Positions 2,804 through 28,148 of a stretch of DNA of 38,275 bases are shown here, one piece after another. Position 1 is the first letter of the stretch. Every line of letters begins with the position of its first letter. The position numbers and the translations under genes are program-made. Origin of the DNA: Alistipes sp. GTDB taxonomy: Bacteria > Bacteroidota > Bacteroidia > Bacteroidales > Rikenellaceae. Below the pieces are notes generated by a model that saw nothing but the letters and a program-made list of their open reading frames with translations, had not been told where the DNA came from and ran no database searches. The stretch is taken from contig JAFVRC010000011.1 of NCBI GenBank assembly GCA_017504485.1, positions 1-38,275 of the forward strand, written 5' to 3'.

Positions 2804-2947
2804 ATGAAAAAGAACTATATATATAATAAGGTATCGGCCTACGAGACGCCTTGTGTGGAGGAGATTGTAGCCCGCGTTGAGAGTGGTTTCGGTAATTCGC
2901 TGGGACTCGGTGACCTCGAGACCGAGGAGGGCGAACTCTACTACTAA
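2804..2947 (+). CDS. Short 47-aa peptide, GFxNSxGLG family
   Basis: This is a complete small gene, ATG to TAA, starting 12 nt after the stop of the giant repeat protein and ending ~50 nt before a strong hairpin terminator. The peptide begins MKKNYIYNK, has a mixed central part with one Cys (ETPCVEEI), then the core GFGNSLGLG and an acidic tail ending EEGELYY. It has no signal peptide or membrane segment. The same layout (MK-[KR], YI, then GF-x-NS-[LI]-GLG, then an acidic tail with terminal aromatic or acidic residues) occurs in the 40-aa gene at 28026-28148, which also sits directly behind a very large exported protein. The second copy in the same genomic context is the main reason to believe it is a gene. 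Function unknown. Guesses are a partner or chaperone peptide of the large protein, or a secreted or processed peptide. Confidence 0.7.
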   Translation: MKKNYIYNKVSAYETPCVEEIVARVESGFGNSLGLGDLETEEGELYY

Positions 2948-2998
2948 AACTCTTTTAAGCGGCGATAGCTTCCGCTAACGAAAGAGCCATCAAAGAAA

Positions 2999-3033
2999 GG
3001 GGCTGTCGCAACAATTGTTGGACAGCCCCTTTT
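2999..3033 (+). terminator. Strong hairpin terminator, probably bidirectional
   Basis: GGGGCTGTC (2999-3007) pairs with GACAGCCCC (3021-3029). Inside, CAAC pairs with GTTG around an AATT loop, with one bulged G. TTTT follows on the plus strand. It ends the repeat-protein/peptide transcript, and read on the minus strand it lies just past the 93-aa gene. A near-identical hairpin in the opposite orientation lies at 24735-24772. Confidence 0.8.
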
Positions 3034-3058
3034 CGTTAGAGGTTGGCAACCGGCCCGA

Positions 3059-3340
3059 CTAAGCATTAACCGCGCTCAACTTCTCGAAGAGTTTGCCATA
3101 GGCCTCTACCATCTCGACACGCAGTGCGGTGTAGTACTTGCGCACAAGCTTCGCATTTTTTGGCTCGGTAGGGTTATTTGCCTTGTGATAGAGCTCATTA
3201 CGAAGCTCAACACCCTCCTGCATAACAGCAAAAATCTCCTGCTCCTTGGTTGGCTGGAAATAGATTGCCATATCACAATCGAACACCAACTCCTCGAGGC
3301 GGTAGTCGATCTCCTTCTTCAAAAATCTCAAATTTGCCAT
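3059..3340 (-). CDS. Conserved Bacteroidales-type small protein, unknown function
   Basis: This 93-aa protein starts MANLRFLKKEIDYRLEE. I chose the ATG at 3340 because a canonical promoter lies just upstream (3376-3406). A start further upstream would lie in the promoter and encode an unconvincing hydrophobic leader. The protein is largely helical and charged, with no signal peptide, no membrane span and no catalytic motif I recognise. The pattern of an acidic, Cys-containing segment (VFDCDMAIYF) followed by helices resembles small uncharacterised proteins common in Bacteroidales. It is monocistronic between the OmpA-like gene upstream and the terminator at 2999-3033. Confidence 0.75.
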   Translation of the reverse strand: MANLRFLKKEIDYRLEELVFDCDMAIYFQPTKEQEIFAVMQEGVELRNELYHKANNPTEPKNAKLVRKYYTALRVEMVEAYGKLFEKLSAVNA

Positions 3341-3375
3341 AGCTATAATATTCGTTAAAAAAGTTGTTGCTAATG

Positions 3376-3406
3376 CAAAGATAAGAATAATTGCTGTTTG
3401 TGCAAA
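3376..3406 (-). promoter_or_regulatory. Bacteroidetes-type promoter for the 93-aa gene
   Basis: On the minus strand TTTG (3403-3406), a 19-nt spacer and TATCTTTG (3376-3383) match the primary sigma consensus TTTG-N19/21-TAnnTTTG exactly. The start codon is ~36 nt downstream. Confidence 0.75.
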
Positions 3407-3479
3407 ATTTTCGGCACAATTCTTCACAAACCAAACATTCGACTACCACTCGTCCGTCGCACAAGACGACCACTTAGTG

Positions 3480-4322
3480 CTACTTATTGCGGCGTGCCTC
3501 GCGTCGCTTCTCGCGCATCTCCTTGCGATAGGCGCGTCGCTCGTCGCGCTCCTTCGGCGTAGCCACAATAACACCTGTCTCCTCGTCGATAAAGACAATC
3601 GACGGCTGCTCCTGTGGCGCGGTCTGCGCAGGGGCCGGCGCAGGGGCCGGCTTCGGCTGCTCGACAAAGGTGGTCGTCACAAGACTATCCACGCCATAGT
3701 CGAACTCGATGTCGGCATAGCGCATCTGCGGCAAAATCTTGGCCGTCAGATAGCGCCACACGTCAGGGTGCTTGCGCAGTTCGAGCTGCTTCTGCTGCTC
3801 CGAGGCAGCACTGTTGAGTATCTGCAGCACAGCCTGCTTCGACGGTATATCCGACTCCGTGACGGCCGGCACGCACTCCTTCCAACTAAACACGCGCGAC
3901 GAAGTCGAAATCTTGGCCTTCGGATGATAGGTATTCATCGCATAGTGATAGAGCGACGAGGCACGCTTTGCCGCAAGCGAGTCGTTCTGCTCGGCATTGC
4001 CATCGGGCGAGGCGTAGCCGTGTACGGAAATCGCTCCGATGTGCATCATCGTATCGGCCGTACGCTGCATAAACTCGCGCAAATCGACTATCTGCTCGGC
4101 GTTATCGCCATAGACGGGTGAGATATCCGAGCGATTGATTACATAGTGCAGGTCGAACCCGGCGTGCAAGTTGTTCTTCTGCGGCACGAGGTAGCGTGTC
4201 GTCACGGTATTTCCGTTGCGCACCTGCGAGATAAGCACGGCATTAGCCGCCGGCTTGCTGCTCTGCGCCACAGCTGTCATCAGCAGTGGCAGAGCCAAAA
4301 GAGTAAGAAATGTTCGTTTCAT
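3480..4322 (-). CDS. Secreted OmpA-like domain protein with basic C-terminal tail
   Basis: A 280-aa protein from MKRTFLTLLALPLLMTAVAQ, a clear signal peptide; an extension further upstream would bury this signal. Residues ~40-200 contain a degenerate OmpA/peptidoglycan-binding-like module. HVGYASP-type sequence (IGAISVHGYASPDGNAEQN) is followed by LAAKRASSLYHYA, the usual 'GyASpeG...LaxxRA' signature also seen in DUF3868/OmpA-like proteins of Bacteroidales. A Pro/Ala-rich linker follows (PAPAPAPAQTAP), and the end is very basic (RRAYRKEMREKRREARRNK). The linker and tail suggest a periplasmic protein bridging the outer membrane or peptidoglycan and something anionic, which is inference. It lies 54 nt downstream of the antiporter gene on the same strand and may be cotranscribed. 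Confidence 0.7.
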   Translation of the reverse strand: MKRTFLTLLALPLLMTAVAQSSKPAANAVLISQVRNGNTVTTRYLVPQKNNLHAGFDLHYVINRSDISPVYGDNAEQIVDLREFMQRTADTMMHIGAISVHGYASPDGNAEQNDSLAAKRASSLYHYAMNTYHPKAKISTSSRVFSWKECVPAVTESDIPSKQAVLQILNSAASEQQKQLELRKHPDVWRYLTAKILPQMRYADIEFDYGVDSLVTTTFVEQPKPAPAPAPAQTAPQEQPSIVFIDEETGVIVATPKERDERRAYRKEMREKRREARRNK

Positions 4323-4376
4323 TGTTGGACTTTTTATGGTTTTCACCCTACCAAATCCAACAATCACGCCAGAGGA

Positions 4377-5822
4377 TTACTTGCGCACCACTATTCGATA
4401 GCCCACAGCCGCCACAACAAGCGAAACAAGGGGGCTTATAAGATTGAAGAGGCAGTACGGCAGATAGGTGAGAGTCGCCACGCCAAGCACCGTCGATTGT
4501 GTCATTCCGCACGAGTTCCACGGCACGAGGACCGAGGTGACGGTCGCCGAGTCCTCGACTGAGCGGCTGAGAAGTCGCCCCTCGAGGCCACGCTGACGGT
4601 AAAGGTCACGAAAGGTGCTTCCCGTGATGATTATCGAGATATATTGGTCGGCCGTACAGAGGTTGCAGAAGATACCCGTACCGATGGTCGAAGCAACAGC
4701 GCCGAATACGCTGCGCACATAGCGCATAAATAGCCGCGTGATAGCTTCAAGCATACCGCTGCTCGACATCACACCACCGAAACACATTGCACACAGCACA
4801 AGCCACACCGTATTGAGCATACCGGACATGCCCGACGTGGCGACCAACTCGTTGAGCGACACCTCGCCCGTATCTATGGCCGTCGAGCCCGACACGGCAA
4901 CCATCACTGCGCGAAGAGCCGAGTCACCACCCTCGCCGCCAATGCTGCGAACTATATCGGGTTGCGCGACAACCATAGCCACGGCAGCCACGATAACGGC
5001 TACGAAGAGTGTAATAAGCGCAGGTAGCTTGCGCACGACAAAGAGTGCCGTAATGACAGGTACAACAAAGAGCCACGGCGTAATATTAAACGTGCCATAC
5101 AACGCCTCCTCTATCATCTGCACCTGCTCCGAGGAGCCCGACGCATGCGAGATACTCACGCCGAAGAATATTACCAACGCGATGACAAACGACGGCACGG
5201 TCGTGATAAGCATATAGCGAATATGGTCGAAGAGTGGAACTTGTGCCGCCGAGGAGGCCAAGACCGTTGTATCCGAGAGCGCCGACACCTTGTCGCCAAA
5301 ATATGCCCCCGAGATTATCGCTCCGGCAATCCAGCCGTCATCGAACCCCTCGGCATGCCCAACGCCCATCAGCGCAACGCCGATTGTGGCGATAGTGGTC
5401 CACGAGCTACCCGTGACAATCGACACCATAGCGCATATCAGGCAGGCGACACCCAGAAAGATTGTCGGATGTATAACCTTCAATCCATAATATATAAAGG
5501 TAGGCACCACGCCGCTCACCATCCATGTTCCCGAGATGGCTCCGATAAGCAGCAGTATGATGATGGCCGAAGCTGAGGTGCGTATGCCCTCGACGATACC
5601 CTCCTCCAAACGGCTCCACGGCATACGGTAGCACCACATAGCGAGAGCGGCTGCCACCGCCGAGGCGAGCAGCAGTGCCACCTGACTGCCACCATTGATG
5701 GCCTCGGCACCAAAGCTGTCTATAACCAATGCCAACACGACCACCAACACAGCAATAGGAAGCAGGGCCACCCACACCGAAACACGCTCGCCAGAAGGAT
5801 GCAAGGATTTGAAAAATCGCAT
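4377..5822 (-). CDS. nhaC: NhaC-family Na+/H+ antiporter
   Basis: A 481-aa polytopic inner-membrane protein starting MRFFKSLHPSGERVSVW. The ATG at 5822 was chosen over an upstream frame extension that runs into the intergenic region. About 11-12 hydrophobic segments are visible. Family signatures include TGSSWTTIATIGVALMGVG and the GAYFGDKVSALSDTT stretch, whose Asp and Ser/Thr-rich motif is typical of NhaC/Ion-transport superfamily antiporters. LCTADQYISII lies near the C-terminus, and EDSATVTSVLVPWNSCGMTQ is the second conserved NhaC signature. It exchanges Na+ for H+ (some NhaC-like members exchange organic acids). It is divergent from the flavin-regulated receptor. Substrate specificity cannot be settled from sequence. 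Confidence 0.88.
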   Translation of the reverse strand: MRFFKSLHPSGERVSVWVALLPIAVLVVVLALVIDSFGAEAINGGSQVALLLASAVAAALAMWCYRMPWSRLEEGIVEGIRTSASAIIILLLIGAISGTWMVSGVVPTFIYYGLKVIHPTIFLGVACLICAMVSIVTGSSWTTIATIGVALMGVGHAEGFDDGWIAGAIISGAYFGDKVSALSDTTVLASSAAQVPLFDHIRYMLITTVPSFVIALVIFFGVSISHASGSSEQVQMIEEALYGTFNITPWLFVVPVITALFVVRKLPALITLFVAVIVAAVAMVVAQPDIVRSIGGEGGDSALRAVMVAVSGSTAIDTGEVSLNELVATSGMSGMLNTVWLVLCAMCFGGVMSSSGMLEAITRLFMRYVRSVFGAVASTIGTGIFCNLCTADQYISIIITGSTFRDLYRQRGLEGRLLSRSVEDSATVTSVLVPWNSCGMTQSTVLGVATLTYLPYCLFNLISPLVSLVVAAVGYRIVVRK

Positions 5823-5892
5823 AATAATTCTAAAAAGTGGCACAAATATACGAATTTTACCGTAATGAGTAGGCCATATCACATTTTTTAAC

Positions 5893-5900
5893 TATATTTG
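5893..5900 (+). promoter_or_regulatory. Putative -7 element of the riboswitch-receptor transcript
   Basis: TATATTTG matches TAnnTTTG and ends immediately before the FMN aptamer, so transcription would start at the aptamer's 5' edge. No TTTG is seen at -33. Confidence 0.45.
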
Positions 5901-5902
5901 CA

Positions 5903-6041
5903 TTGCAATTTCAGGGCGGGGCGAAACTCCCCACCGGCGGTGATAGTCCGCGACTCCTCGGTCGAGCCACACGCTACGACAAGGACTGAATCGGTGAAAC
6001 TCCGATACCGACGGTTATAGTCCGGATGGAAGAGGTTGCAG
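5903..6041 (+). promoter_or_regulatory. FMN riboswitch (RFN element)
   Basis: All hallmark blocks of the FMN aptamer occur in order. CAGGGCGGGGCGAAACTCCC and CACCGGCGGTGATAGTCCGCGA come first, then a variable hairpin (5955-5990). GACTGAATCGGTGAAACTCC, CGATACCGACGGTTATAGTC and CGGATGGAAGAGG follow. P1 can form between TTGCAA (5904-5909) and TTGCAG (6036-6041). It binds flavin mononucleotide and in known cases represses the downstream gene when FMN is plentiful. A separate intrinsic terminator (6110-6140) lies between it and the ATG at 6153, fitting transcription attenuation. TCAGGGC (5911-5917) is complementary to GCCCTGA of the terminator 5' arm (6110-6116), a possible antiterminator pairing (inference). 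The only gene it can control here is a TonB-dependent receptor, which is unusual. Confidence 0.95.
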
Positions 6042-6109
6042 TTGTTTTCCGAGTGCGCTGTGCGCTCCCGTTGTCGGGGCGGCAGTTGCATTGTCGGTAC
6101 GACCACAAG

Positions 6110-6140
6110 GCCCTGATGTGCATAAACATTAGGGCTTTTA
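6110..6140 (+). terminator. Riboswitch expression-platform terminator
   Basis: GCCCTGATG (6110-6118) pairs over 9 bp with CATTAGGGC (6127-6135), one G-U included, and is followed by TTTTA. It ends 13 nt before the receptor ATG, so it can only act as a regulatory attenuator for that gene. Confidence 0.82.
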
Positions 6141-6152
6141 TCGTTATCGACC

Positions 6153-9100
6153 ATGAAGAGATTTCTGTACATACTACTCGCGGCACTCGCTATGCCGCAC
6201 TTCCTTACCGCACAAACCACCACCTCTGCCCTCACGGGCTATGTCACCGACGCCGAGGGCAAGGCATTGGTCGGAGCAACCGTGATTGCAACGCATACGC
6301 CTACGGCCACGACCTATGGCACGACGACCGACCTCTCGGGTAGCTACAACCTGCAAGGCCTACGCGTCGGAGCTCCCTACACCATCGAGTTTTCGTATGT
6401 CGGTTATCGCGATGTGAGCGTCGAGGGTATTGCCCTCGCATTAGGCGACCAGAAGCGTGTGGATGCACGCTTGAGGGAGAACACCACAATCGAGGCTGTC
6501 GTTGTCGAGGGCAACCGAGCAACAGACCTGCACGCGGGTGCTGCATCCTCATTCGACCGTGCCACTATCGAGCGAATGCCGACCATCACACGCCCCATCG
6601 ACGACATCACACGCCTCTCGCCGCAGGCTATGGCAACGAAAGATGGCGGCATGAGCATTGCCGGCACCAACAGCCGCTTCAACTCCTTTATGATTGACGG
6701 CACGGCAAGCAACGATATGTACGGACTTACCTCCACGGGTACAAACGGTGGCTTGGCCGGCGCAAACCCCATACCATTGGATGCCATTGCCGAGGTACAG
6801 GTGGTTGTTGCGCCCTTCGATGTGCGCGAGAGCGGCTTCACGGGCGGAGGTATAAATGCTGTAACCAAGTCAGGCACAAACACCTTTAGCGGCACGGCCT
6901 ACGGCTACTTCAACAACCAGGACTTCTATGGTCGTAACCCTCAAACGCGCAAACCTCTCTCGACGCAGAGCACCCAGACCTATGGCGTGTCGCTCGGCGG
7001 AGCTATCGTGCGCAACAAACTCTTCTTCTTCCTTAATGGCGAGTTCAACTACGACCGCTCGCCATCATCCTACTATGTGGGGTACCCCGGCACACGTCTT
7101 ACGGAGAACGATGCAACAAAGATTGCCGACCACTTCTACGCACTGACAGGCTACGACGGAGGAGGCTACGGCGAGCGCAACATCAAACGCACGGCAGGCT
7201 CACTTATCGCCCGCCTCGACTGGAACATCAACTCGCGCCACACGCTCTCACTGCGCTACAACTTCCTCGATGCCCGCAAGGATGAGTACGCCAACTCGGC
7301 CTCGATCTTCAAGTTCTGCGGCGAGGGTTACTCTTCGCCGAGCAACACGCACTCGATTGTCGGCGAGTTGAACTCGCGCTTCTCGCAAAAGTTATTCAAC
7401 CAACTGCGCGTGGGATACACGCGCGTGTGGGACGGACGAGATCGCGCAAGTGGCGGCCGCTACCCATTCGTGCAGATCGACAACGTCGGTGGCGAGCCTC
7501 TCACCGTACATATAGGCACCGACCCAAACGCACTGACGAACTCGCTGGTGCAGAACACCATAAACATCACCGACAACCTCACCTTCTACGAGCAGGATCA
7601 CGCCATAACCGTCGGTACACACAACGAGATATTCTTCGGCGCGGTGCAGTATGTTGCCAATGCAATGGGTGCCTACACCTACTCGTCGCTCGACGATTTT
7701 TTGGCCGATAAGCCGCAAAAATATGTGCGCAACTACCCTATCGGCGACCCGTCAATCGACATACGCAATGCTCAATTCGGCATATACATCCAAGACGAAT
7801 GGTCAATATCGCGCAACTTTAAACTCACCTATGGCGTGCGTGCCGACATTCCTGTCGTATTCAACACACCGCTCGAAAATCCGGCGTTCAACAGCTCGGA
7901 TATAGCTCAAGAGGCAGGTGTCGCAACCTCAACCAAGCCGACTGCCAAGGTGATGGTATCGCCGCGCATAGGCTTCCGTTGGCAGGCTGCCAAGAGCGAC
8001 AATGCCTCTACTCTGCTACGCGGCGGTGCAGGTCTATTCACGGGCAAGGTACCTTTCGTATGGATTACCAACTGCTTCTCGAATACGGGTATGACACAGC
8101 GCGGCTACACGCTCAAAGGAGATGCCATACCCGCTTTCGGCGAGAATCCGTCGGGCGACGAGGGTGTATCCTCGAACCCGATGATTAACGTCATCGACCC
8201 GAAGTTCCGCTATCCGCAGGTGCTGCGTGCCAACATTGCCCTCGACCAAGAGGTCAAGGGATGGAAATTCACGCTCGAAGGCATCTTCTCGAAGCGGCTC
8301 AACGACCTTCTGGTCCGTAACATAATGCTCCGCGACAGCAACCTTAAGCTCTACGCTGTAAATAGCGCGATGCAAAACGAGCACAACAGCTCGATGCTCT
8401 ACGACTCATCACGCGCCACGCAATACTCATCAGTCTATTACCTGACGAATACCAATAAAGGTTACAGCTACTCAGTGAGTCTCTCGGTGGCCAAGCACTT
8501 CAACTTCGGCCTCAACTTGAGTGCCGCCTATACCTACGGACGTTCCTACACGGTGCAGGACGGTGTTTCGGCACAGGCAGCAAGCATCTGGGGCAAGACC
8601 TATACCCCCGAATCGAATTCACCGCAACTCGGCATTTCGCTCTTCGACACGCCGCATAAGTTCACCGCTACGCTATCCTACACCAAGCGTTACGCCAAGT
8701 ATTTCGGTACGACGATTGCCCTCGTCTATCAAGGCTTCTCGGGTATGCGCTACTCGCTCACCTACGCCACAACGTGCGATCTGAACAACGACTCGCGAAA
8801 TGGCAATATGCCTATCTATATCCCTACAAGCGAGGAGCTTGCGGCGATGGACTTCGAAAGCGAGGAGCAACGCGCCGCCTTCGGGCAGTATATCGAATCG
8901 GTGCCGGCACTGCGCCGTAATCGCGGAGCATACTCGCAACGCAACATTATGATTACACCTTTCGAGCACCACCTCGATCTGCACTTCGCCCAAGACTTCT
9001 ACTTCGGAGCAAAGAGTGAGCGACGGCTGCAACTCGTGCTCGATATTATGAACCTCGCCGCCCTATTCTCACCTAATGCCGGAGCATCGTACTACGTCAG

Positions 9101-9254
9101 CGATGGTCGCCTCTCACCAGTCGAGATTTGCGATATAAAGAGCGATGCCGAGGGCAACCGCACGCCGACCTATCGCTTCACAGGGGCTTCGGTCTCGCAA
9201 CACGACCTGCTCTCGCGTTGGAGAATGCAGGTCGGGGCGCGAGTCTATTTCTAA
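6153..9254 (+). CDS. TonB-dependent outer-membrane receptor (carboxypeptidase-regulatory/Oar-like), FMN-riboswitch controlled
   Basis: A 1033-aa protein. The signal peptide MKRFLYILLAALAMPHFLTAQ is followed by a carboxypeptidase-regulatory-like domain (~25-105, 'GYVTDAEGKALVGATV' to 'YVGYRDVSVEGI'). The plug follows (~110-235: EAVVVEGNR, SRFNSFMIDG, GGLAGANPIPLDAIAEVQV, GFTGGGINAVTKSGTN), then a long beta-barrel ending in an aromatic residue (GARVYF). This is the layout of Oar-like receptors, which use TonB energy to import large or scarce ligands. It lies downstream of an FMN aptamer and attenuator, so expression should rise when FMN is low, pointing to riboflavin/FMN or a flavin-carrier ligand (inference). 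No SusD-like partner is adjacent and no rib genes lie in the window. The ATG immediately after the terminator is the only sensible start. Confidence 0.93.
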   Translation: MKRFLYILLAALAMPHFLTAQTTTSALTGYVTDAEGKALVGATVIATHTPTATTYGTTTDLSGSYNLQGLRVGAPYTIEFSYVGYRDVSVEGIALALGDQKRVDARLRENTTIEAVVVEGNRATDLHAGAASSFDRATIERMPTITRPIDDITRLSPQAMATKDGGMSIAGTNSRFNSFMIDGTASNDMYGLTSTGTNGGLAGANPIPLDAIAEVQVVVAPFDVRESGFTGGGINAVTKSGTNTFSGTAYGYFNNQDFYGRNPQTRKPLSTQSTQTYGVSLGGAIVRNKLFFFLNGEFNYDRSPSSYYVGYPGTRLTENDATKIADHFYALTGYDGGGYGERNIKRTAGSLIARLDWNINSRHTLSLRYNFLDARKDEYANSASIFKFCGEGYSSPSNTHSIVGELNSRFSQKLFNQLRVGYTRVWDGRDRASGGRYPFVQIDNVGGEPLTVHIGTDPNALTNSLVQNTINITDNLTFYEQDHAITVGTHNEIFFGAVQYVANAMGAYTYSSLDDFLADKPQKYVRNYPIGDPSIDIRNAQFGIYIQDEWSISRNFKLTYGVRADIPVVFNTPLENPAFNSSDIAQEAGVATSTKPTAKVMVSPRIGFRWQAAKSDNASTLLRGGAGLFTGKVPFVWITNCFSNTGMTQRGYTLKGDAIPAFGENPSGDEGVSSNPMINVIDPKFRYPQVLRANIALDQEVKGWKFTLEGIFSKRLNDLLVRNIMLRDSNLKLYAVNSAMQNEHNSSMLYDSSRATQYSSVYYLTNTNKGYSYSVSLSVAKHFNFGLNLSAAYTYGRSYTVQDGVSAQAASIWGKTYTPESNSPQLGISLFDTPHKFTATLSYTKRYAKYFGTTIALVYQGFSGMRYSLTYATTCDLNNDSRNGNMPIYIPTSEELAAMDFESEEQRAAFGQYIESVPALRRNRGAYSQRNIMITPFEHHLDLHFAQDFYFGAKSERRLQLVLDIMNLAALFSPNAGASYYVSDGRLSPVEICDIKSDAEGNRTPTYRFTGASVSQHDLLSRWRMQVGARVYF

Positions 9255-9262
9255 AATTTTAC

Positions 9263-9270
9263 TATCTTTG
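9263..9270 (+). promoter_or_regulatory. -7 element for the response regulator
   Basis: TATCTTTG lies 24 nt upstream of the response-regulator ATG and downstream of the receptor stop, suggesting the regulator also has its own promoter. The -33 region is weak. Confidence 0.5.
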
Positions 9271-9294
9271 CGCTGACGAAGAGGCAAAAAGAAG

Positions 9295-16490: not shown

Positions 16491-16558
16491 CAATCCAAGG
16501 CCACACAGTGGGGCTTTCGAGCGCAAAATCAGTTCGTTGTACCCCTTGCCAAGAGATG

Positions 16559-16630
16559 TACCCCCGAGCAGAATCGAACTGCTATCTTCGGTTTAGGAAA
16601 CCGCTTCTCTATCCGTTGAGATACAGGGGC
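16559..16630 (-). tRNA. tRNA-Arg (anticodon CCU)
   Basis: Read on the minus strand, the 72-nt cloverleaf has acceptor GCCCCTG/CGGGGGT, then TA. The D-arm TCTC-AACGGATA-GAGA and anticodon arm with loop TTCCTAA (anticodon CCT, reading AGG) follow. The T-arm is AGCAG-TTCGATT-CTGCT, with discriminator A. CCA is not encoded. The outer acceptor pair is G-U and the outermost anticodon-stem pair G-A is mismatched, but the rest is well formed. Confidence 0.9.
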
Positions 16631-20455: not shown

Positions 20456-21694
20456 ATGAAACGATACATTACGACCATCATTGCAACCCTCGTGCTCGGC
20501 GCAGCAGCCTCGGCGCAGCAGACCGACACAACTACCTACAACAACCTTGCGGCCAAGGTAGATGCCCTCGAAGCACGCCTTGCCAAGGCCGAGAAGCGTG
20601 CCAATGCTTGGGAGAAGAGCAAGCAGTACTTCAAAGTTACGGGCTTCACACAGGTAGCATACGACTGGCACGACGACAGAGCGAGCGTTCCGGCTCTCGC
20701 CGAGGATAACAAGGCACAGGTTATCACGGGTGCCTCGACCTTCCACCTGCGTCGCGCACGTCTGTCGATAACGGGCGACATCTACAAGGGCAAGAAGGGC
20801 GCGGTGCTCGACTACCGCCTCTATTTCGATATTACGCGTGTGCCGAACAACCCTATCCTCGATATGTGGGTGCGTTACCGTCCGTTCAAGGAGTTCGGCG
20901 TGCAGATTGGACAGTTCAAGAATCCCCTCTCGATTGAGGCAAGTATTGCACCTAACAAGTACGACTTTATCGACTTCTCCTACGCGGTCAGCTACCTTGC
21001 CAAGATGGGCAAGTACGACGTTATGGGGCTCAATATGACGGCCCGCGACATCGGCTTCCGCTTCATCGGAGGATTTATCCATCGCGACGGATACAGCATC
21101 ATAAACTACGACCTCGGTTTGCTCAACGGTACGGGCATCAACACCAAGGATAACAACACGAGCAAGGATGTGATTGCCGTGCTGACCATCAAGCCTATGA
21201 AGGAGTTGATGATTAAGACCTACTACCAGTGGGGCGAGGCCAACCTCGCAACAAAGGACAACTATGCCGACTATCGCTGGACGGGCAACGGCCACTATGT
21301 TCGCACGCACCGCTGGGGTGTAGGCGCAGAGTACAACCCCGAGAAGTTCTTCCTGCGTGGCGAGTATTTGGCAGGCCTGACGGGACTCCTACCTTCGGAG
21401 GGTGCTTACCTCTCGGGAGGCTACAAGCTCGCGCTGCCGAAGCAGGCCGGCATATTCTGGGCCGGAGCGATGGTCGATTACTTCTGCTACGACGTGAAGG
21501 ACTATGTTGACCGCGACACACGCAATGCAGATATCGATATGCGCTACTCGATTTGCCTCGGCTACAGCCCGAACAAGCACTTCCGCGTACAGGCGGCTTA
21601 CTCTTTCGAGCACTTCATCGGCCAAAGCAGCCACGTCGGCTACACAAACCGTCACGGCAACGGCTTCAAGCTGCTCTGCACAGCCTCGTTCTAA
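20456..21694 (+). CDS. OprO/OprP-type porin (phosphate-selective porin family)
   Basis: A 412-aa outer-membrane protein. The signal peptide starts MKRYITTIIATLVLGAAASA. A short periplasmic coiled coil follows (~25-55, LAAKVDALEARLAKAEKRA), then a beta-barrel from TGFTQVAYDWHDD to the terminal aromatic strand (FKLLCTASF). STFHLRRARLSITGDI and VQIGQFKNPLSIE are typical of the O/P porin family (PF07396). Selectivity for phosphate or polyphosphate is known for Pseudomonas members but not assured here. It is first of four close genes: a YeiH transporter 58 nt on, a small secreted protein and a secreted phosphodiesterase. Confidence 0.87.
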   Translation: MKRYITTIIATLVLGAAASAQQTDTTTYNNLAAKVDALEARLAKAEKRANAWEKSKQYFKVTGFTQVAYDWHDDRASVPALAEDNKAQVITGASTFHLRRARLSITGDIYKGKKGAVLDYRLYFDITRVPNNPILDMWVRYRPFKEFGVQIGQFKNPLSIEASIAPNKYDFIDFSYAVSYLAKMGKYDVMGLNMTARDIGFRFIGGFIHRDGYSIINYDLGLLNGTGINTKDNNTSKDVIAVLTIKPMKELMIKTYYQWGEANLATKDNYADYRWTGNGHYVRTHRWGVGAEYNPEKFFLRGEYLAGLTGLLPSEGAYLSGGYKLALPKQAGIFWAGAMVDYFCYDVKDYVDRDTRNADIDMRYSICLGYSPNKHFRVQAAYSFEHFIGQSSHVGYTNRHGNGFKLLCTASF

Positions 21695-21752
21695 CACCTC
21701 GACACCCTCCCACAACCAAAACATAACCTAAAACCTCAAAAGACAAACTGTT

Positions 21753-23048
21753 ATGAATAAGAATTTTTGGAAACAATTTCTTGTCGAGGACTGGGTGGTC
21801 ACCCCGCTCTCCATTCCACCGCTCATAATCTCGGGCTTCGCCTATTCGCTTCCGGGCAATGGCCCACGCGTGCCGTCGGAGCTCACCTCGGCCAGTGACT
21901 GGGCCAATGTTGCGGAGTTCTTCGTTATAGCTCTCGTGATTCTCTACGCCGGCAACAAGATGCTACAACGCCCGATGAAGGGCCTACTGCTCTCGTTCAT
22001 CGCCGTATTTGCAATCTCGATGGTGGCGCAGATGGTCGCCTCGATACCGGCAATCAAGATGTTCGGCTTTGAGGCCGTATTCTTCTCGGTAATCTTCGGC
22101 CTTATAATCCGCAATTGCTTCACTATTCCGAAGTGGATGAAGCCGGCCATTCAAGGCGAGTTCTTCATCAAGATAGGTGTCGTGTGTCTCGGTGCCACGA
22201 TTCTCTTCCGCGACTTTCTGACAGCCGGCATTATGGGACTTGTGCAGGCATGCGTTGTTGTGGCTTGCGTATGGCTCTTCGGATTCTTCCTCGCGCGTCG
22301 TTTGAAGGTCGAGGATCCTACGGCGATGACTCTCGCCTCGGGAGTATCTATATGCGGTGTATCGGCCTGCATCACAGCAGCAGGCGTGGCCAATACCGAC
22401 GGCAAGCGACTCTCGTACATCGTATCGGTAGTGCTCATTATCGTTGTGCCGATGATATACCTTATGCCATACCTTGCACGCCTTATCGTGCCATTGATGA
22501 CCGACGACGTGGCAATACAAAACGAGATTGCCGGTGCGTGGATTGGCGGCACGGTAGATACAACGAGCGGCGTAGGTGCTGCCTCGGCGATATACGGCGA
22601 GGAGGCCAACAAGATTGCGATGATTGTCAAGGCTACGCAGAACGTACTTATCGGCGTCGTGGCCTTCTGTATTGCCACTTACCTCGCCTCGAAGAGTGCC
22701 GATGGCAAGTTCCACCGTCCATCACTGCGCATCGTATGGGACAAGTTCCCGAAATTTGTCCTCGGCTTCGTCGTTGCTTCGCTGGTGTTCAGTCTCTTGC
22801 AGCAGTATGAGATATTCCCCGACTCGACAGCTCGCAAGCTCACCGAAACGGCCCTCGCCAAGCGATTCTCGGGCTTCTTATTCTCGCTGGCCTTCGTATG
22901 TATAGGTCTTGACACGCGACTCAAAGATATAGTTTCGAAGCAAAACCGCAACGTGCTCTACGCCTTCCTCGGCGCACAGTGCTTCAATATCGTGATTACG
23001 ATGTTGCTCGCATGGCTCTGCTTTGGTATCATCAAACCTATGCTCTAA
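21753..23048 (+). CDS. YeiH/YeiB-type putative sulfate exporter family transporter
   Basis: A 431-aa inner-membrane protein with ~11 hydrophobic segments. The repeated half-domain signatures of the UPF0324/PSE family are present: GVVCLGATILFRDF, ASGVSICGVSACITAAG, GAWIGGTVDTTSGVGAA and SLAFVCIGLDTRLKDI. The ICGVSA and GGTVDTT motifs are the family hallmarks. Substrate is often annotated as sulfate, though direct proof is thin. It follows the porin by 58 nt and precedes the next gene by 6 nt. Confidence 0.9.
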   Translation: MNKNFWKQFLVEDWVVTPLSIPPLIISGFAYSLPGNGPRVPSELTSASDWANVAEFFVIALVILYAGNKMLQRPMKGLLLSFIAVFAISMVAQMVASIPAIKMFGFEAVFFSVIFGLIIRNCFTIPKWMKPAIQGEFFIKIGVVCLGATILFRDFLTAGIMGLVQACVVVACVWLFGFFLARRLKVEDPTAMTLASGVSICGVSACITAAGVANTDGKRLSYIVSVVLIIVVPMIYLMPYLARLIVPLMTDDVAIQNEIAGAWIGGTVDTTSGVGAASAIYGEEANKIAMIVKATQNVLIGVVAFCIATYLASKSADGKFHRPSLRIVWDKFPKFVLGFVVASLVFSLLQQYEIFPDSTARKLTETALAKRFSGFLFSLAFVCIGLDTRLKDIVSKQNRNVLYAFLGAQCFNIVITMLLAWLCFGIIKPML

Positions 23049-23054
23049 ACCTCT

Positions 23055-23618
23055 ATGAGACGAATATTAACACTCTATTTTGCTCTATTCGCTGCGCTTA
23101 GCGTCGCGGCGCAAAGCAGAGCCTACAAGATTGGTGACCTCTACACGGAGGAAGGCAAGCGTGGCGTAGTCTTCGAGGTGAGCAACGATGGGCAACACGG
23201 CAAGATTGTAAGTGTCGAGCAGTCGCACGACTGGGTAAAGTGGTGCACACGCGAAGTGCGTGACAAGGAGTTCGATATGATGAGCGACAACGACGGCTTG
23301 GCCAACACTCTGAAGATGCGTGCTGTCGAGACTCTCGAAGAGTGGCAGAAGTACTACCCTGCCTATGCGTGGTTCCGTACACTCGGCGAGGGATGGTATA
23401 TCCCTGCCGTCGAGGAGGCTCGTGCCTTGGCTGCCGTAGCCGAAAAGGTAAACGCCACACTCGAACAGCACGGATACAAGCGACTATACTACCACCTTTG
23501 GACCTCGACCGAGATAGAGGGCAAACAACAGATATGGATGATTGACACGGAGTACAACGCTACATACATGTCGGGCAAAAGTTCGATGTGCTGCGTACGC
23601 GCCATTGCACAATTCTAA
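23055..23618 (+). CDS. Small secreted protein with Lcl/DUF1566-like fold
   Basis: A 187-aa protein. The signal peptide MRRILTLYFALFAALSVAAQ is followed by YKIGDLYTEEGKRGVVFEVS, a pattern of DUF1566/Lcl-C-like secreted domains that continue with GWYIPAVEEARAL, YHLWTSTEIEG and IWMIDTEY and close with a CCVRAI strand. The Trp-rich 'W.IP...L' and 'WTSTE' motifs are the best evidence; catalytic residues are not evident. It lies 6 nt after the transporter and 16 nt before the secreted phosphodiesterase, so it belongs to the same transcript. Function unknown. Confidence 0.7.
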   Translation: MRRILTLYFALFAALSVAAQSRAYKIGDLYTEEGKRGVVFEVSNDGQHGKIVSVEQSHDWVKWCTREVRDKEFDMMSDNDGLANTLKMRAVETLEEWQKYYPAYAWFRTLGEGWYIPAVEEARALAAVAEKVNATLEQHGYKRLYYHLWTSTEIEGKQQIWMIDTEYNATYMSGKSSMCCVRAIAQF

Positions 23619-23634
23619 AAAAACATATAATACA

Positions 23635-24705
23635 ATGAAACGACTACTCTCTACAGCAGCAGCACTATTGCTTATGCTTACCGCCACAACGGCAGCCGCA
23701 AACGACCTACCAAAGATGTTTGCTCATCGCGGAGGTCACACACACGAAATTCCCGAGAATACACCTGCAGCCGTCGCTTCGGCCAAGCGTTTCGGCTATG
23801 CGGGCGTGGAGCTCGATGTACGCCTTACGAAGGATGGCAAGATGGTTGTCTTTCACGACAAGACCATCAACCGCAAGATGCGCAATGCAACCGACTACTC
23901 GCGCATCGAGGAGAAGATTAGCGTGCGCGACCTCACATTCGATGAGCTGCGCAACAACTACGTTCTCGCCTCGCCAAATCCCGCTATGCGCTTCCCAGTG
24001 GCCACCCTCGACGAGATACTCCTCGAGTGCAAGCGTCAGGGAATGATACCGATGCTCCACAGCAAGTATGTCGCATCATACCGCCGCGCACAGGAACTCT
24101 TCGGCGATGAATGGATATGCTTCACGAGCAATGTCGCCGCGCTCGAAGAGTGCCGCACATTCTCGAAGTGCCTAATACTCTATGGCATAAGACCTAATAC
24201 GGTCAATGGTGCTGATGCCGTACTGGAGCGTCTTGGCGGCCGATGCGGCGTATCGACAATGCAGTCCGAGATATTGACCGAGGAGCGTATTGCCGCATGG
24301 CGCAAGAAGGGATACGAGGTACAAGCCTCTGTCTTCAAGGCCCCTCTCGAAGTGGAGGCTACACGTCGCGGCGTAAGTATGCACCTCACGGATTTTGCCC
24401 TTGTACCCGACAGTCGCTTCAAGCGTGTGGATGGCTGCTCGGAGGAGCGCCGCACACTCGCGCTTGGCGAGGAGCTCAGTTACAAGTGGAATAAGACGGA
24501 GTACGGAGGCGTCGCCCTCTCGCTTCAATTCCGCGGCGAGGTGGAGATTGTCGTCCACGGCAAGCGCACCTATCAGCTGACGAGCGACGGCCGCAAGCCT
24601 ATCGTTCTCGGTGTACGCCTCGCCAAAGGCACCCCTTCGCTCACCGTGCGTGCCCTGCGTACAACGAAGCTACGCTCGCTGGCCTGCGATGTGTATGAGT
24701 TTTAG
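23635..24705 (+). CDS. Secreted glycerophosphodiester phosphodiesterase family protein
   Basis: A 356-aa protein. The signal peptide MKRLLSTAAALLLMLTATTAA is followed by the GDPD core (~25-265): MFAHRGG (catalytic His), IPENTPAAV, VELDVRLTKDGKMVVFHD (metal-binding Glu/Asp and second His) and a C-terminal ~90-aa beta-rich module (KWNKTEYGGVALSLQFRGEVE). Where classical GDPDs carry an acidic metal ligand in the IEIK-type strand, this one reads PMLHSK. The same His position occurs in the GDPD domain of the lipoprotein at 28151-31735. Likely hydrolyses glycerophosphodiesters outside the inner membrane. It ends the porin operon; the ATG at 23635 opens the signal peptide. Confidence 0.87.
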   Translation: MKRLLSTAAALLLMLTATTAAANDLPKMFAHRGGHTHEIPENTPAAVASAKRFGYAGVELDVRLTKDGKMVVFHDKTINRKMRNATDYSRIEEKISVRDLTFDELRNNYVLASPNPAMRFPVATLDEILLECKRQGMIPMLHSKYVASYRRAQELFGDEWICFTSNVAALEECRTFSKCLILYGIRPNTVNGADAVLERLGGRCGVSTMQSEILTEERIAAWRKKGYEVQASVFKAPLEVEATRRGVSMHLTDFALVPDSRFKRVDGCSEERRTLALGEELSYKWNKTEYGGVALSLQFRGEVEIVVHGKRTYQLTSDGRKPIVLGVRLAKGTPSLTVRALRTTKLRSLACDVYEF

Positions 24706-24734
24706 CCAAGCGTCTGCTACACCATAAAAGCCAC

Positions 24735-24772
24735 AAGGGGCTGTCCAACAAGTTGTGTTGCGACAGCCCCTT
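24735..24772. terminator. Hairpin terminator-like element, same family as 2999-3033 but inverted
   Basis: GGGGCTGTC (24737-24745) pairs with GACAGCCCC (24762-24770), and inner CAACA pairs with TGTTG around AGTTG. Apart from the loop it is the reverse complement of the hairpin at 2999-3033. No strong T-run on either side. It follows the GDPD gene by 31 nt and probably ends that transcript. Confidence 0.65.
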
Positions 24773-24879
24773 ACGCTTGACGACAATAGCACCAGAGCCT
24801 CAATCAAGGCCACACCAATAATCATAAAGTCCAACTCTATAACATTCCAGAAACAAAGCTGGGCACAATTTCTCGCAAC

Positions 24880-25066
24880 CATCTTTATCTACCTCCTTAA
24901 AGACTTAAAAGTGCAACGCGATAGTTGCCCCTTAGCGATATGCCATTTGCGCCTTTAAGGAGGTAAATATAAGGCGCACAAAAAACCCGATGCGCAGCAT
25001 ACTTGATGTATGTGAGCAATCGGGTTATTGAAGTGCAACGCGATAGTTGCCCCTTAAAGACGCAAA
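24880..25066. repeat. Gene-free repeat patch: 13-bp inverted repeat and duplicated 26-mer
   Basis: A 26-nt sequence containing the hairpin GCAACGCGATAGTTGC occurs identically at 24909-24934 and 25031-25056, 122 nt apart. The first copy lies inside a perfect 13-bp inverted repeat, TACCTCCTTAAAG (24890-24902) with CTTTAAGGAGGTA (24953-24965). The tsf terminator lies between the copies. I see no credible gene in 24706-25066. It could be a small palindromic element, a structured RNA or a remnant of an insertion. Confidence 0.6.
24980..25026 (-). terminator. Terminator of the rplM-rpsI-rpsB-tsf operon
   Basis: On the minus strand AACCCGAT pairs with ATCGGGTT (25019-25026 with 24984-24991) and TTTT follows. 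An inner CATAC/GTATG helix (24998-25012) sits in the loop. It lies ~40 nt past the tsf stop. Confidence 0.75.
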
Positions 25067-25903
25067 TTATGCGTCGAGAGCAAAACGCTTGTATGCAATC
25101 ACCGTAGCCTCCTTATCGGCACGAGCGATGAACTCGCGGATAGACTCCTTCTCGCCTACAACGGTCTGGTTGAGAAGCGTGTTCTCCTCGAAGAACTTAC
25201 GCATCTTACCCTCGGCAATCTTCTCGAGAATAGCCTCCGGCTTGTTTGCATTCTTTGGATCCTGCTTCATCTGCTCGAGTGCAATAGCCTTCTCCTTGGC
25301 TATAACCTCCTCAGGGCAGTCGTTCTCGTCAATCGAGATAGGAGCCATTGCGGTAGCCTGCATAGCTACGGTCTTGGCAACCTCGGCAGGAACCTCCTTG
25401 TTGAAGCCGAGCAACGTACCGAGCTTCTTGTTGAAGTGAACGTATGCGCTAACATACGGAGCCTCAACGCGAGCGTAGTAAGCAAGCTCTACCTTCTCGC
25501 CGGTCTGACCCGACTTCTCGGTAACAATCGCCTCAACGGTGTGGCCCTCGTCATTCTTGACGGCGAGCAGCGTAGCGAGGTCGGCAGCGTCAGCCTTAAC
25601 AGCAAGCTCCAAAACCTCGTTTGCCGAAGCCGAGAACTCCGAGTTCTGCGCAACGAAGTCGGTCTCGCAAGCGAGGCAGAGGATATAACCCTTCGTGCCT
25701 ACAATCTTGGTTACGACAACGCCCTCGCTGGCCGAGCGATCGGCACGCTTGGCTACAACGAGCTTACCCTTCTCGCGGATAATGTCCTGTGCACGCTCGT
25801 AATCGCCCTCTGCCTCGATGAGTGCCTTCTTGCAATCCATCATACCGGCACCCGTCATCTTGCGGAGCTTCATCACGTCGGCAGCTTTAATCTCTATTGC
25901 CAT
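25067..25903 (-). CDS. tsf: Translation elongation factor Ts
   Basis: A 278-aa guanine-nucleotide exchange factor that recycles EF-Tu. The N-terminal UBA-like region (VMKLRKMTGAGMMDCKKALIEAEGDYERA) and the hallmark CETDFVAQN exchange motif are present, followed by the two dimerisation/core repeats. The C-terminus is KEATVIAYKRFALDA. I chose the ATG at 25903 (MAIEIKAADV), the usual start; a longer in-frame extension overlaps rpsB and is not protein-like. It is last in the ribosomal operon, 31 nt after rpsB, with a terminator beyond. Confidence 0.97.
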   Translation of the reverse strand: MAIEIKAADVMKLRKMTGAGMMDCKKALIEAEGDYERAQDIIREKGKLVVAKRADRSASEGVVVTKIVGTKGYILCLACETDFVAQNSEFSASANEVLELAVKADAADLATLLAVKNDEGHTVEAIVTEKSGQTGEKVELAYYARVEAPYVSAYVHFNKKLGTLLGFNKEVPAEVAKTVAMQATAMAPISIDENDCPEEVIAKEKAIALEQMKQDPKNANKPEAILEKIAEGKMRKFFEENTLLNQTVVGEKESIREFIARADKEATVIAYKRFALDA

Positions 25904-25934
25904 AGTTTTCTTTGTTTTTTTGTCGGTTAATAAA

Positions 25935-26798
25935 TTACTCGGCCTGTGGCTCTGCGGCAGCCTCCTCGGTAGCAGCAACCACCTCGGCAACAGCAGCCTC
26001 CTCAGCCTCAACATTGGCCTTTACGCTCTTCTTGATGCGCGTCTTGCCCTCCTTCTTCGGAGCAGCCTCGGTGTTAGCCTCGGCCTCAAGGGTCTCCTTC
26101 TCCTTCTCGAGCTTGCGCTCCTCTACGCCCTCGGCGATAGCAGCACATACGGTATCAAGGATAACGGCGATAGACTTCGTAGCATCGTCATTTGCAGGTA
26201 TAACGTAATCGATGTCGGTTGGATCACAACAAGTATCTACCATTGCAAATACCGGAATGTTAAGACGCTTTGCCTCCTTAACGGCGTTCTGCTCCTTCTG
26301 TACGTCAACAACGAACAGGGCAGCCGGCAGACGGGTAAGGTCTGCGATAGAGCCGAGGTTCTTCTCGAGCTTTGCGCGCTGGCGCGAAATCTGCAACTTC
26401 TCACGCTTCGAGAAGTTGTCGTAGAGGCCGTCAGCCATCTGCTTGTCGATGGTAGCCATCTTCTTAACGGCCTTTCGTATGGTTGGGAAGTTGGTGAGCA
26501 TACCGCCGGCCCAACGCTCTGTAACGTAAGGCATACCTACGGTTGCCACCTTTTCGGCAACAATCTCCTTTGCTTGTTTCTTCGTAGCTACGAACAGCAC
26601 ACGGCGACCGCTCTTGGCAATCTGCTTCAAGGCTGCTGCAGCCTCATCCAACTTTACAACAGTCTTGTAAAGGTCGATGATGTGGATGCCGTTCTTCTCC
26701 ATAAAGATATAAGGAGCCATTTTAGGGTTCCACTTGCGCTTCAAGTGACCAAAATGAACGCCGGCCTCCAATAATGTATTAAAATCTGTACGTGACAT
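25935..26798 (-). CDS. rpsB: 30S ribosomal protein S2
   Basis: A 287-aa protein of the small subunit that joins late and helps bind S1/mRNA. Conserved segments include LLEAGVHFGHLKRKWNPKM, FVATKKQA, ERWAGGMLTNFPTIR, LPAALFVVDVQKE, IPVFAMVDTCCDP and YVIPANDDA. The last ~60 residues are an Ala/Glu/Lys-rich tail ending AAAEPQAE, longer than in E. coli and common in Bacteroidetes. A ~194-nt leader with a hairpin separates it from rpsI. Confidence 0.97.
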   Translation of the reverse strand: MSRTDFNTLLEAGVHFGHLKRKWNPKMAPYIFMEKNGIHIIDLYKTVVKLDEAAAALKQIAKSGRRVLFVATKKQAKEIVAEKVATVGMPYVTERWAGGMLTNFPTIRKAVKKMATIDKQMADGLYDNFSKREKLQISRQRAKLEKNLGSIADLTRLPAALFVVDVQKEQNAVKEAKRLNIPVFAMVDTCCDPTDIDYVIPANDDATKSIAVILDTVCAAIAEGVEERKLEKEKETLEAEANTEAAPKKEGKTRIKKSVKANVEAEEAAVAEVVAATEEAAAEPQAE

Positions 26799-26840
26799 TT
26801 TTGTTTACGTTTTGTTTTTAATTTTAATTCTCTTTTCTTC

Positions 26841-26880
26841 AACTTGCGAGTAGCACCCCCTTGGGGCAGTCTTGCAAGTT
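26841..26880 (-). promoter_or_regulatory. Hairpin in the rpsB leader, candidate S2 autoregulatory RNA
   Basis: AACTTGC (26841-26847) pairs with GCAAGTT (26874-26880) and CCCC (26857-26860) with GGGG (26863-26866), separated by internal loops. It lies 43 nt upstream of the rpsB start in a long rpsI-rpsB spacer that also holds an AT palindrome (26914-26930). S2 leaders regulate rpsB in other phyla; this case is inferred. Confidence 0.4.
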
Positions 26881-26992
26881 TTCCGCGACAGGGCATCGGA
26901 CAGGTAGTACGCGTATATATAATATATATAGGTAGTCGTGCCGATTCTCGAACCCGTGTCGTGCTTTGCCGAATAGTTGGTTCGTCGTGCGA

Positions 26993-27379
26993 TTAACGCT
27001 TGCTGAACTGGAACTTACGACGTGCACCAGGCTGTCCCGGCTTCTTACGCTCAACCTCACGGGCGTCACGAGTAAGGAATCCGTTCTTCTTCAAAACAGG
27101 ACGAAACTCTGCGTTAATCTCGCACAATGCGCGAGCGATACCCATGCGGGCAGCCTCGGCCTGACCCTTGATACCGCCACCAACGAGGTTGATGACAACA
27201 TCATACGACTCCAGAGTCTCGGTTACGAGCAGTGGCTGCTTAACCTCATACTGGAGGATGTTCAATGGGAAATAAACGGCAAGCTCCTTCTGGTTGATTG
27301 TAATGTTTCCGGTACCCGGCTTCACGAATACGCGAGCGACAGCTGCCTTACGGCGACCAACGGTGTTTACAACTTCCAT
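26993..27379 (-). CDS. rpsI: 30S ribosomal protein S9
   Basis: A 128-aa small-subunit protein whose C-terminal tail reaches the P-site tRNA. Visible: VGRRKAAVARVFVKPG, VTETLESYDVVINLVGGGIKGQAEAARMGIARAL, and the conserved end GFLTRDAREVERKKPGQPGARRKFQFSKR with the invariant SKR terminus. It starts 5 nt after rplM, the usual coupling. Confidence 0.97.
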   Translation of the reverse strand: MEVVNTVGRRKAAVARVFVKPGTGNITINQKELAVYFPLNILQYEVKQPLLVTETLESYDVVINLVGGGIKGQAEAARMGIARALCEINAEFRPVLKKNGFLTRDAREVERKKPGQPGARRKFQFSKR

Positions 27380-27384
27380 AATTC

Positions 27385-27840
27385 TTACTTAATCTCGTTC
27401 AACTTAATTTGCTTTGGGTTCTGCGCAGCGTGCGGATGCTCTGCACCGGCATAAACCTTCAAGTTTTTGATAATAGCCTCACCGAGGCGCGTCTTTGGCA
27501 GCATGCCGCGAACAGCCTCCTCGATTACGAACTCAGGTTTCTTTGCCAAATACTCGGCAGGAGTAGCGAAACGCTGACCACCCGGATAACCCGTGTGGCG
27601 GACATAGACCTTGTCGGTCAACTTCTTACCTGTGAGCTTCACCTTCTCGGCGTTCACCACGATAACATAGTCACCGCAATCAACGTGAGGGGTGTAGCCC
27701 GGCTTGTTCTTACCGCAGAGAATCTTTGCAATCTGCGAAGCCAAGCGACCCAATACCTCGTTAGTAGCGTCAATGACAACCCACTCCTTGTTGACCGTAG
27801 CTGCATTCAACGAGATAGTTTTGTAGCTTAATGAATCCAC
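27385..27840 (-). CDS. rplM: 50S ribosomal protein L13
   Basis: A 151-aa large-subunit protein. A GTG start gives MDSLSYKTISLNAATVNKEWVVID, the normal N-terminus in Bacteroidales, so GTG is preferred. Further signatures: NEVLGRLASQIAKIL, YTPHVDCGDYVIVVNAEKV, RHTGYPGGQR and GMLPKTRLG. First gene of rplM-rpsI-rpsB-tsf, with a promoter at 27904-27935 and a short CG-rich hairpin in its leader. Confidence 0.97.
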   Translation of the reverse strand: MDSLSYKTISLNAATVNKEWVVIDATNEVLGRLASQIAKILCGKNKPGYTPHVDCGDYVIVVNAEKVKLTGKKLTDKVYVRHTGYPGGQRFATPAEYLAKKPEFVIEEAVRGMLPKTRLGEAIIKNLKVYAGAEHPHAAQNPKQIKLNEIK

Positions 27841-27903
27841 TGTGTTTTACGTTTAAAACTTGTTAATAAATAATGTAATCCAACCTCGCGCAGTGCGAGT
27901 GCG

Positions 27904-27935
27904 CAAAGATACGAATAATTTTTCGAATAAAACAA
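27904..27935 (-). promoter_or_regulatory. Promoter of the ribosomal protein operon
   Basis: On the minus strand TTG (27933-27935), a 21-nt spacer and TATCTTTG (27904-27911). The rplM start is ~64 nt downstream, after a small hairpin CTCGC/GCGAG. Confidence 0.65.
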
Positions 27936-28025
27936 CTTTTCTGCAAAAGAAAAAGTCGATTAACATACAGCAGGGCCTTATTCGACGGATACATTTAGCT
28001 CATTGCAACTTTTAGTCACTGCGCA

Positions 28026-28148
28026 CTAATCCCACTCTCCGCCTTCGATGGTAGAGTCGTCGTCCAGTCCCAAACCTATTGAATTGGAAAAGCCAAGCTC
28101 TGCCAACACAGAGTGTATATCTATCTCGGGGGTTATATATCTTTTCAT
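28026..28148 (-). CDS. Short 40-aa peptide, GFxNSxGLG family
   Basis: A complete small gene, ATG to TAG. Its ATG lies 2 nt after the stop of the 1194-aa lipoprotein (TAG-TT-ATG), so translation is probably coupled. The sequence begins MKRYITPEIDIHS, carries the core LGFSNSIGLG and ends in an acidic tail (DDDSTIEGGEWD). It aligns with the 47-aa peptide at 2804-2947 over the core (GF-x-NS-[LI]-GLG) and shares the MK-x-YI start and acidic end. There is no Cys, signal peptide or membrane segment. No clear terminator follows before the rplM promoter. Function unknown; its fixed place behind a large exported protein is the main clue. Confidence 0.72.
   Translation of the reverse strand: MKRYITPEIDIHSVLAELGFSNSIGLGLDDDSTIEGGEWD

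Follow-up and report, generated by a model that had tools for sequence, protein, structure and literature searches.

Discrete RiPP recognition elements (RREs; RiPP, ribosomally synthesized and post-translationally modified peptide) of lasso peptide pathways recognise a [Y/W]xxPx[L/V/I/F/A] motif, and the LPP (linear polyphosphorylated peptide) precursors of Bacillota carry the sequence YxxPxVLxHQxIxFETxxS, in which the tyrosine occupies -16 and T-1 is the last residue of the leader (PMC13381572). The LPP genes lie in clusters with an RRE, an SpI-like peptidase, an HprK-like kinase, an NTP transferase and an MsbA-like transporter, in a set without a macrolactam cyclase (PMC13381572). Our subject is a pair of short genes in a 38,275-nucleotide stretch of Alistipes sp. 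DNA (GenBank assembly GCA_017504485.1, contig JAFVRC010000011.1, positions 1 to 38,275; hereafter the window), which encode peptide 1 of 47 residues (2804-2947, forward strand) and peptide 2 of 40 residues (28026-28148, reverse strand). They belong to a family whose members share an N-terminal head of fixed register, are under purifying selection, are mostly paired with lipoproteins whose N-terminal module is tracked by the C-terminal tail of the peptide, and co-occur with a lasso-B1-like RRE. We put it at about an even chance that they are dispersed, multi-copy, RRE-recognised precursor-like proteins, each typically sharing an operon with a surface lipoprotein whose N-terminus is a fimbrillin-like module.

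The family resembles the LPP system of PMC13381572 in a head with YxxPxV, a discrete RRE, a variable C-terminus and a conserved block at the leader end, the last being putative here. Unlike LPP genes, the precursors are dispersed beside lipoproteins. With lasso peptides the family shares the YxxP head motif and an RRE whose best matches are lasso PqqD/B1 proteins; it differs in having no gene cluster and, as judged by eye, no ring Asp or Glu at a fixed place.

Short precursor-like genes are a feature of other Bacteroidales systems too, among them the GG-leader natural product precursors (TIGR04149). Nine Bacteroidales RiPP clusters are likewise comparable in having such genes; according to PMC10352776 most of their precursors carry GG-motif residues, the genes are clustered and seven of the nine clusters hold a C39 peptidase-containing transporter (PCAT), all unlike the present family. 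The terms YxxP, lipoprotein and Alistipes do not occur in the text of PMC10352776. On the side of the partners, the closest system is that of the type V pilins or fimbrillins (Mfa_like_1, PF13149; FimA, Mfa1), to which the partner module is weakly related and with which it has a conserved Arg in common. In contrast to type V pilins, the partner bodies include LRR, BACON, fn3, GLUG, M64 and LamG/GDPD domains, and four apparently ordinary fimbrillin loci of the genome that contains the window (L260 and L263-L265, by eye) have no peptide within about 1.5 kb.

A family of short peptides with a fixed-register head

A 27-row profile was run against 24,216 open reading frames (ORFs) of 20-160 residues from the window and 80 fetched regions, the latter picked from the best-scoring matches listed and not at random. 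There were 88 matches at E<=1e-3, the rows of the profile themselves included, and no match at E<=0.1 among decoys made by shuffling or reversing the same ORFs. Peptides 1 and 2 score 3.3e-14 and 1.0e-13. Chance matching is thus ruled out, and both window peptides, predicted from the letters alone, are real genes under selection. Three of the 88 were left out (L134 and one L120 match, with no usable ATG, and L047, at a contig end), leaving 85 genus peptides.

All 85 have the register Y-x-x-P-x9-[ED]-x-G-[FY]-x-x-[ST], usually followed by an acidic tail. Both window peptides have this head, in the form Y..P.{9}E.GF..S, each with a tail, that of peptide 2 being acidic. The spacing of nine residues from P to [ED] is found in 85/85 genus peptides and in 27 of 31 order-level peptides (identical copies counted once; L061/L189, one peptide with no usable start, excluded), where the nine-residue spacer is followed by GF, GI, GM or AF. 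The original prediction had taken GF-x-NS-[LI]-GLG as the core of the family; this proves to be merely a local form of the wider motif. Nor is the 'YI near the start' that it saw in both peptides homologous, since Tyr4 of the 40-mer aligns with Tyr13 of the 47-mer. Scans for the narrower core turned up no confirmed relative, either in named genomes or among viral contigs, although near-genome records may be absent from these collections. A viral origin is unsupported, with no confirmed relative in the viral contigs and no PHROGs match to either peptide.

The tails of 74 compared peptides are 30% Asp plus Glu and in sum 1.4% Lys plus Arg, and these peptides have a median isoelectric point of 4.06 and a median length of 46. 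No hydrophobic signal sequence was seen in the peptides by eye. Codon-level comparison indicates purifying selection on the protein: pN/pS is 0.29 over 71 pairs, 0.34 in the head and 0.21 in the tail. The check that had been proposed was made on eight paralogs from the genome that holds the window, all ending GFGNSLGLGDLETEEGELYY; their last 20 residues are identical in 28/28 pairs, with 1-14 of 60 nucleotides differing across the last 20 codons.

In the genome of the window (hereafter the home genome; 1.92 Mb, 82% complete) a search with peptide 2 led to seven places, peptide 1 included, and the 27-row profile gave 16 matches, all at E<=4.4e-5 and one truncated by a contig end. A seven-row profile (E<=0.01) matched in 85 of 101 genus genomes, with up to 23 matches per genome. 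In the order, matches to a 37-row profile were present in 15 of 393 genomes, spread over 13 of 207 genera. The 27-row profile (E<=0.001) matched in one of 296 genomes of a phylum sample, namely the home genome. Named relatives of one subtype come from Alistipes and Rikenellaceae metagenome-assembled genomes, taken, where a source is stated, from the gut of goat, sheep, cattle, deer and buffalo.

That no described family covers the two peptides was borne out by the absence of any Pfam, NCBIfam or PHROGs match to them. Among 27 members there were only stray matches to single members, the best at E 0.024. No publication describing the family was found by title or start of abstract among the open-licence PMC papers listed, and small-protein catalogues may hold it unnamed. 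It is apparently an undescribed, large set of tiny proteins in gut Bacteroidales.

Pairing with surface lipoproteins

Each window peptide is the last gene behind a giant protein. Peptide 1 starts 12 nt past the stop at 2791 of a solenoid protein of at least 929 residues (host 1; 2-2791, forward strand), the N-terminus of which lies beyond the contig start and which has a GLUG match below the Pfam cut-off. Peptide 2 starts 2 nt past the TAG of a 1194-residue lipoprotein with Laminin_G_3 and GDPD domains (host 2; 28151-31735, reverse strand). Positions, sizes and spacings are as originally given. Fusion of peptide to host by frameshift or readthrough was rejected because the host-peptide gaps (2, 12, 13, 15, 21, 22 and 105 nt) occupy all three frames.

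A position behind a giant exported protein, the layout first proposed, is in fact the minority one; the link of the peptide class to exported proteins itself holds. An exported gene lies directly downstream (within 150 nt, same strand) of 70 of the 85 peptides, with a median gap of 15 nt for these 70; 66 of the 70 genes have a lipobox, marking them as signal peptidase II (SPII) substrates by our own heuristic. An SPII gene is downstream of 66/85 peptides and of 12/217 control genes (17 regions of the same genus), and a lipoprotein is adjacent on either side in 73/85 and 17/217, respectively. The remaining 12 peptides comprise four with hosts truncated at a contig edge, four with a signal peptidase I or transmembrane (SPI/TM) protein downstream and four with neither. 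A close same-strand gene is present on both sides of 31/85 peptides and upstream only of 12/85, both window peptides included. The gene caller favoured ORFs with a lipoprotein signal, for controls and peptides alike, and gave 72 near downstream genes (66 SPII, four SPI/TM, two neither); without that bonus it gave 59, of which 54 were SPII. On contigs of named Alistipes and Rikenellaceae the count was 17/17 SPII, some of these being genomes already counted. The pairing is strong, not absolute, and the family together with its operonic partnership is well supported.

At order level an exported gene follows 19 of the 31 peptides (18 SPII, one SPI/TM), and about seven others lie behind proteins with C-termini that by eye resemble type IX sorting domains. 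Related peptides of this placement in other Bacteroidales families (L183, L188, L194, L197, L203, L204 and L221) are 20-45 nt behind the proteins with the type IX-like C-termini, again by eye. At L108 a stretch of roughly 6 kb contains three peptides, every one of them followed by a lipoprotein, as tandem peptide-lipoprotein cassettes.

The partners are diverse. Among 63 downstream partners Pfam finds LRR_5 in 14, BACON in 11, fn3 in eight, Glug in four, Peptidase_M64 in three and Mfa_like_1 in two; among 34 upstream genes it finds BACON in 11 and LRR_5 in eight. Their N-termini are more alike than their bodies, and 25 chosen modules share an invariant lipobox Cys and an invariant Trp, with an Arg present in 90% or more of them. 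A crude pattern for this module matched 52/66 downstream lipoproteins, 5/21 upstream, 11/80 non-adjacent and 4/19 control lipoproteins; by eye, most of the 11 non-adjacent matches look accidental. PF13149 was found in four of the 25 modules at E<=1, the best at 1.2e-4, and PDB entry 3t2l at E 0.32, both weak matches. Of 22 module matches in the home genome (E<=1e-15; five profile rows are home-genome sequences), 12 adjoin a peptide, four are at contig ends and six have no peptide, as counted from coordinates.

The two hosts had been called unrelated. BLAST finds no similarity over the parts of them within the window, and to that extent the statement stands; most partners nevertheless have this one module in common. 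Host 2 carries it at its N-terminus (31019-31735, reverse strand), with lipobox Cys17, Arg47, Trp61 and ..FAVYP.., and matches the module profile at E 6.7e-66, being itself one of the 25 rows. Home-genome relatives of host 1 (L038, L041, L043 and L044; 23-31% identity) also carry the module, and the three with a complete start are lipoproteins: L038 (1289 residues), L043 (1428) and L044 (1192).

Over 74 pairs, tail similarity follows the similarity of the first 150 post-lipobox residues of the partner (rho 0.18 among dissimilar modules, a value reached in none of 300 permutations). Head similarity shows no clear correlation with the module (rho 0.06, p 0.16) or with the C-terminus (rho 0.06, p 0.12). 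The tail tracks the partner module and the head does not, and the head would therefore be the common part and the tail the partner-specific part. Some of this co-variation may come from physical adjacency, but in the eight solenoid hosts of the identical-tail peptides the peptide is at the far end and the host C-termini differ, as judged by eye.

The RRE gene and candidate roles of the peptides

The Y-x-x-P-x-hydrophobic head led us to suspect a leader of the type bound by RREs, and therefore PF05402 was sought in the genus sample. This RRE gene is present in 82 of 101 genomes, as one copy in 79 of the 82. Peptides and RRE are both present in 81 genomes, the peptides alone in four, the RRE alone in one and neither in 15 (Fisher p 2e-13), peptide absence here resting on the seven-row profile, which was built from one genome. 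The GC content of the 15 genomes with neither (one stretch each) spans 0.47-0.64, so that they are not one uniform group, although this is not a phylogenetic test. One of them, G065 (93% complete), has a syntenic locus that keeps the methyltransferase, exonuclease, RecQ, His-rich and TonB-receptor genes, with two other genes at the usual RRE position; tblastn finds no RRE. In an unrooted tree of the receptors, in which G065 was the only RRE-less genome placed, it lies on a long branch between two RRE-bearing groups.

In NCBIfam the RRE comes closest to the lasso PqqD chaperones (NF033530; E 1.9e-5 with the home-genome copy at G000:C36:3217-3483), with other PqqD families close behind and all below the cut-offs. 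Its best solved relative is TfuB1 (6jx3; E 0.0023). Asn37, Asp75, Trp79 and Leu83 are invariant in 9/9 sequences, and Asn37 and Asp75 align with an Asn and an Asp of TfuB1; residues of this kind have been tied to tyrosine-type leaders (PMC13381572). The correspondence with LppB was set by spacing, not by sequence alignment. On the peptide side the head fits the [Y/W]xxPx[LVIFA] leader motif, Y..P and the spacing of nine being present in 85/85. Applied to the family, the LPP numbering of PMC13381572 gives P-13, a hydrophobic residue at -11, E-3, G-1, F+1 and S+4, by which analogy the second conserved block, [ED].G[FY], may be the leader/tail junction.

The RRE gene has a recurring setting (L267-L286, for example L269:528-4110), in the order RecQ, PqqD-like RRE, His-rich exported protein, TonB receptor and HMA metal-binding protein. 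Pfam identifies the neighbours in L276 as methyltransferase, exonuclease, RecQ and TonB receptor, with one unmatched. No peptidase, kinase, NTP transferase or transporter of LPP type was seen at the RRE loci, L276 being checked by Pfam and the others by eye, with one exception. This is the second RRE of G034 (L272:7593-10546), which adjoins a nucleotidyltransferase (PF14907, NTP_transf_5), a sugar transferase and a 300-residue protein with no Pfam match; the nucleotidyltransferase recalls the NTP transferase of LPP/paeninodin clusters.

Recognition of the peptides by the RRE as YxxP leaders, which was missing from the roles listed in the original prediction, has the most independent evidence, and RRE-bound precursors are the best single explanation at about even odds. 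The RRE would bind the head by beta-strand addition. By analogy with LPP, the junction of leader and tail would fall on E-x-G-F-x-x-S, G being residue -1, and some peptidase or other enzyme may act there. The acidic tail, free or attached, could then cooperate with the paired lipoprotein or act upon it, for example in surface display or maturation. A fuller scheme, in which one chromosomal RRE adaptor serves many dispersed precursors with tails matched to their own lipoproteins, so that individual surface proteins of gut Bacteroidales are processed or tagged with RiPP-like peptides, is rather unlikely. If RRE recognition is correct, the handling of peptides under RRE guidance, which is familiar from natural-product gene clusters, would also exist in gut Bacteroidales in a dispersed form that is coupled to surface lipoproteins, and a class of small genes unnamed in the family libraries used would be explained; the head, which resembles the recognition tag of a known peptide maturation system, suggests a concealed route of processing linked to the cell surface. 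Should the RRE link fail, the family, with as many as 23 small genes in one genome and most of them tied to surface lipoproteins, would still offer a handle on surface protein production in Bacteroidales.

A number of observations weigh against RRE recognition. The co-occurrence statistics treat genomes as independent and are uncorrected for relatedness; G036, G061, G081 and G096 (71-88% complete) have peptides and no detected RRE, and G045 has an RRE and no peptides. The neighbours of the RRE look metal-related, being the His-rich protein, the TonB receptor and in many cases an HMA protein, and among 20 RRE loci a peptide was seen at one (L274:2508-2684), about 6 kb from the RRE. Searches for a modifying enzyme or leader peptidase, which covered Transglut_core3 (0/101 genomes) and C39 (home genome), gave no match. 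The tail also correlates weakly with the partner C-terminus (rho 0.09, p 0.007), and its co-inheritance with the module may be simple linkage. One peptide (L131, 6002-6088) ends at GFAGS without any tail. Among the home-genome paralogs conservation is higher in the tail (pN/pS 0.05) than in the head (0.43), which is unlike the usual leader and core.

In a rival explanation the peptides are dedicated cytosolic partners of the lipoproteins, such as export pilots or anti-aggregation peptides, which would bind the fimbrillin-like module while it is nascent and ahead of Sec export, and the correlation with the RRE is a phylogenetic accident. The tight operonic pairing, a tail that follows the module more than the C-terminus, the apparent lack of a signal peptide and the differing C-termini (both by eye) of the hosts that precede the eight same-tail peptides are all consistent with this. 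It leaves unexplained, however, why the YxxP...E.GF..S register stays fixed from partner to partner, why peptides and RRE co-occur and why the G065 locus lacks an RRE, and we regard it as possible though rather unlikely. An exported signal or pheromone made from the same kind of precursor, with the lipoprotein merely co-regulated, is unlikely: the leader-tail layout, the many copies and, in other families, neighbours with type IX-like C-termini (by eye) would suit it, but the tail goes with the module of the partner, and the home genome (82% complete) has no C39 peptidase or transporter, on which ground C39 (PCAT) export was also rejected for that genome.

That the short gene is a regulatory leader ORF, an attenuator or arrest peptide for the lipoprotein gene behind it, is suggested by the 70/85 peptides with an exported gene directly downstream and by the median gap of 15 nt. 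Those with a close gene only upstream (12/85, the two in the window among them) do not fit this layout, and protein-level conservation runs through the C-terminus; this role seems very unlikely. True lasso peptide precursors, for which the YxxP leader and lasso-B1-like RRE would speak, are highly improbable. Lasso membership was rejected because the B2 protease (PF13471, Transglut_core3) is absent from all 101 genus genomes, a search that in a control set gave matches in two of 14 genomes, above the cut-off in one; the NCBIfam lasso precursor model matched one of 27 members, at E 0.091.

Other features of the window

Pfam places the Laminin_G_3 (ConA-like) domain of host 2 at residues 367-519 (30179-30637, reverse strand) and its GDPD domain at residues 970-1181 (28193-28828, reverse strand). 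Elsewhere in the window an FMN riboswitch aptamer (RF00050, 106 bits; 5903-6041, forward strand) lies upstream of a 1033-residue ORF (6153-9254), and a tRNA-Arg (CCT) gene is located at 16558-16630 on the reverse strand.

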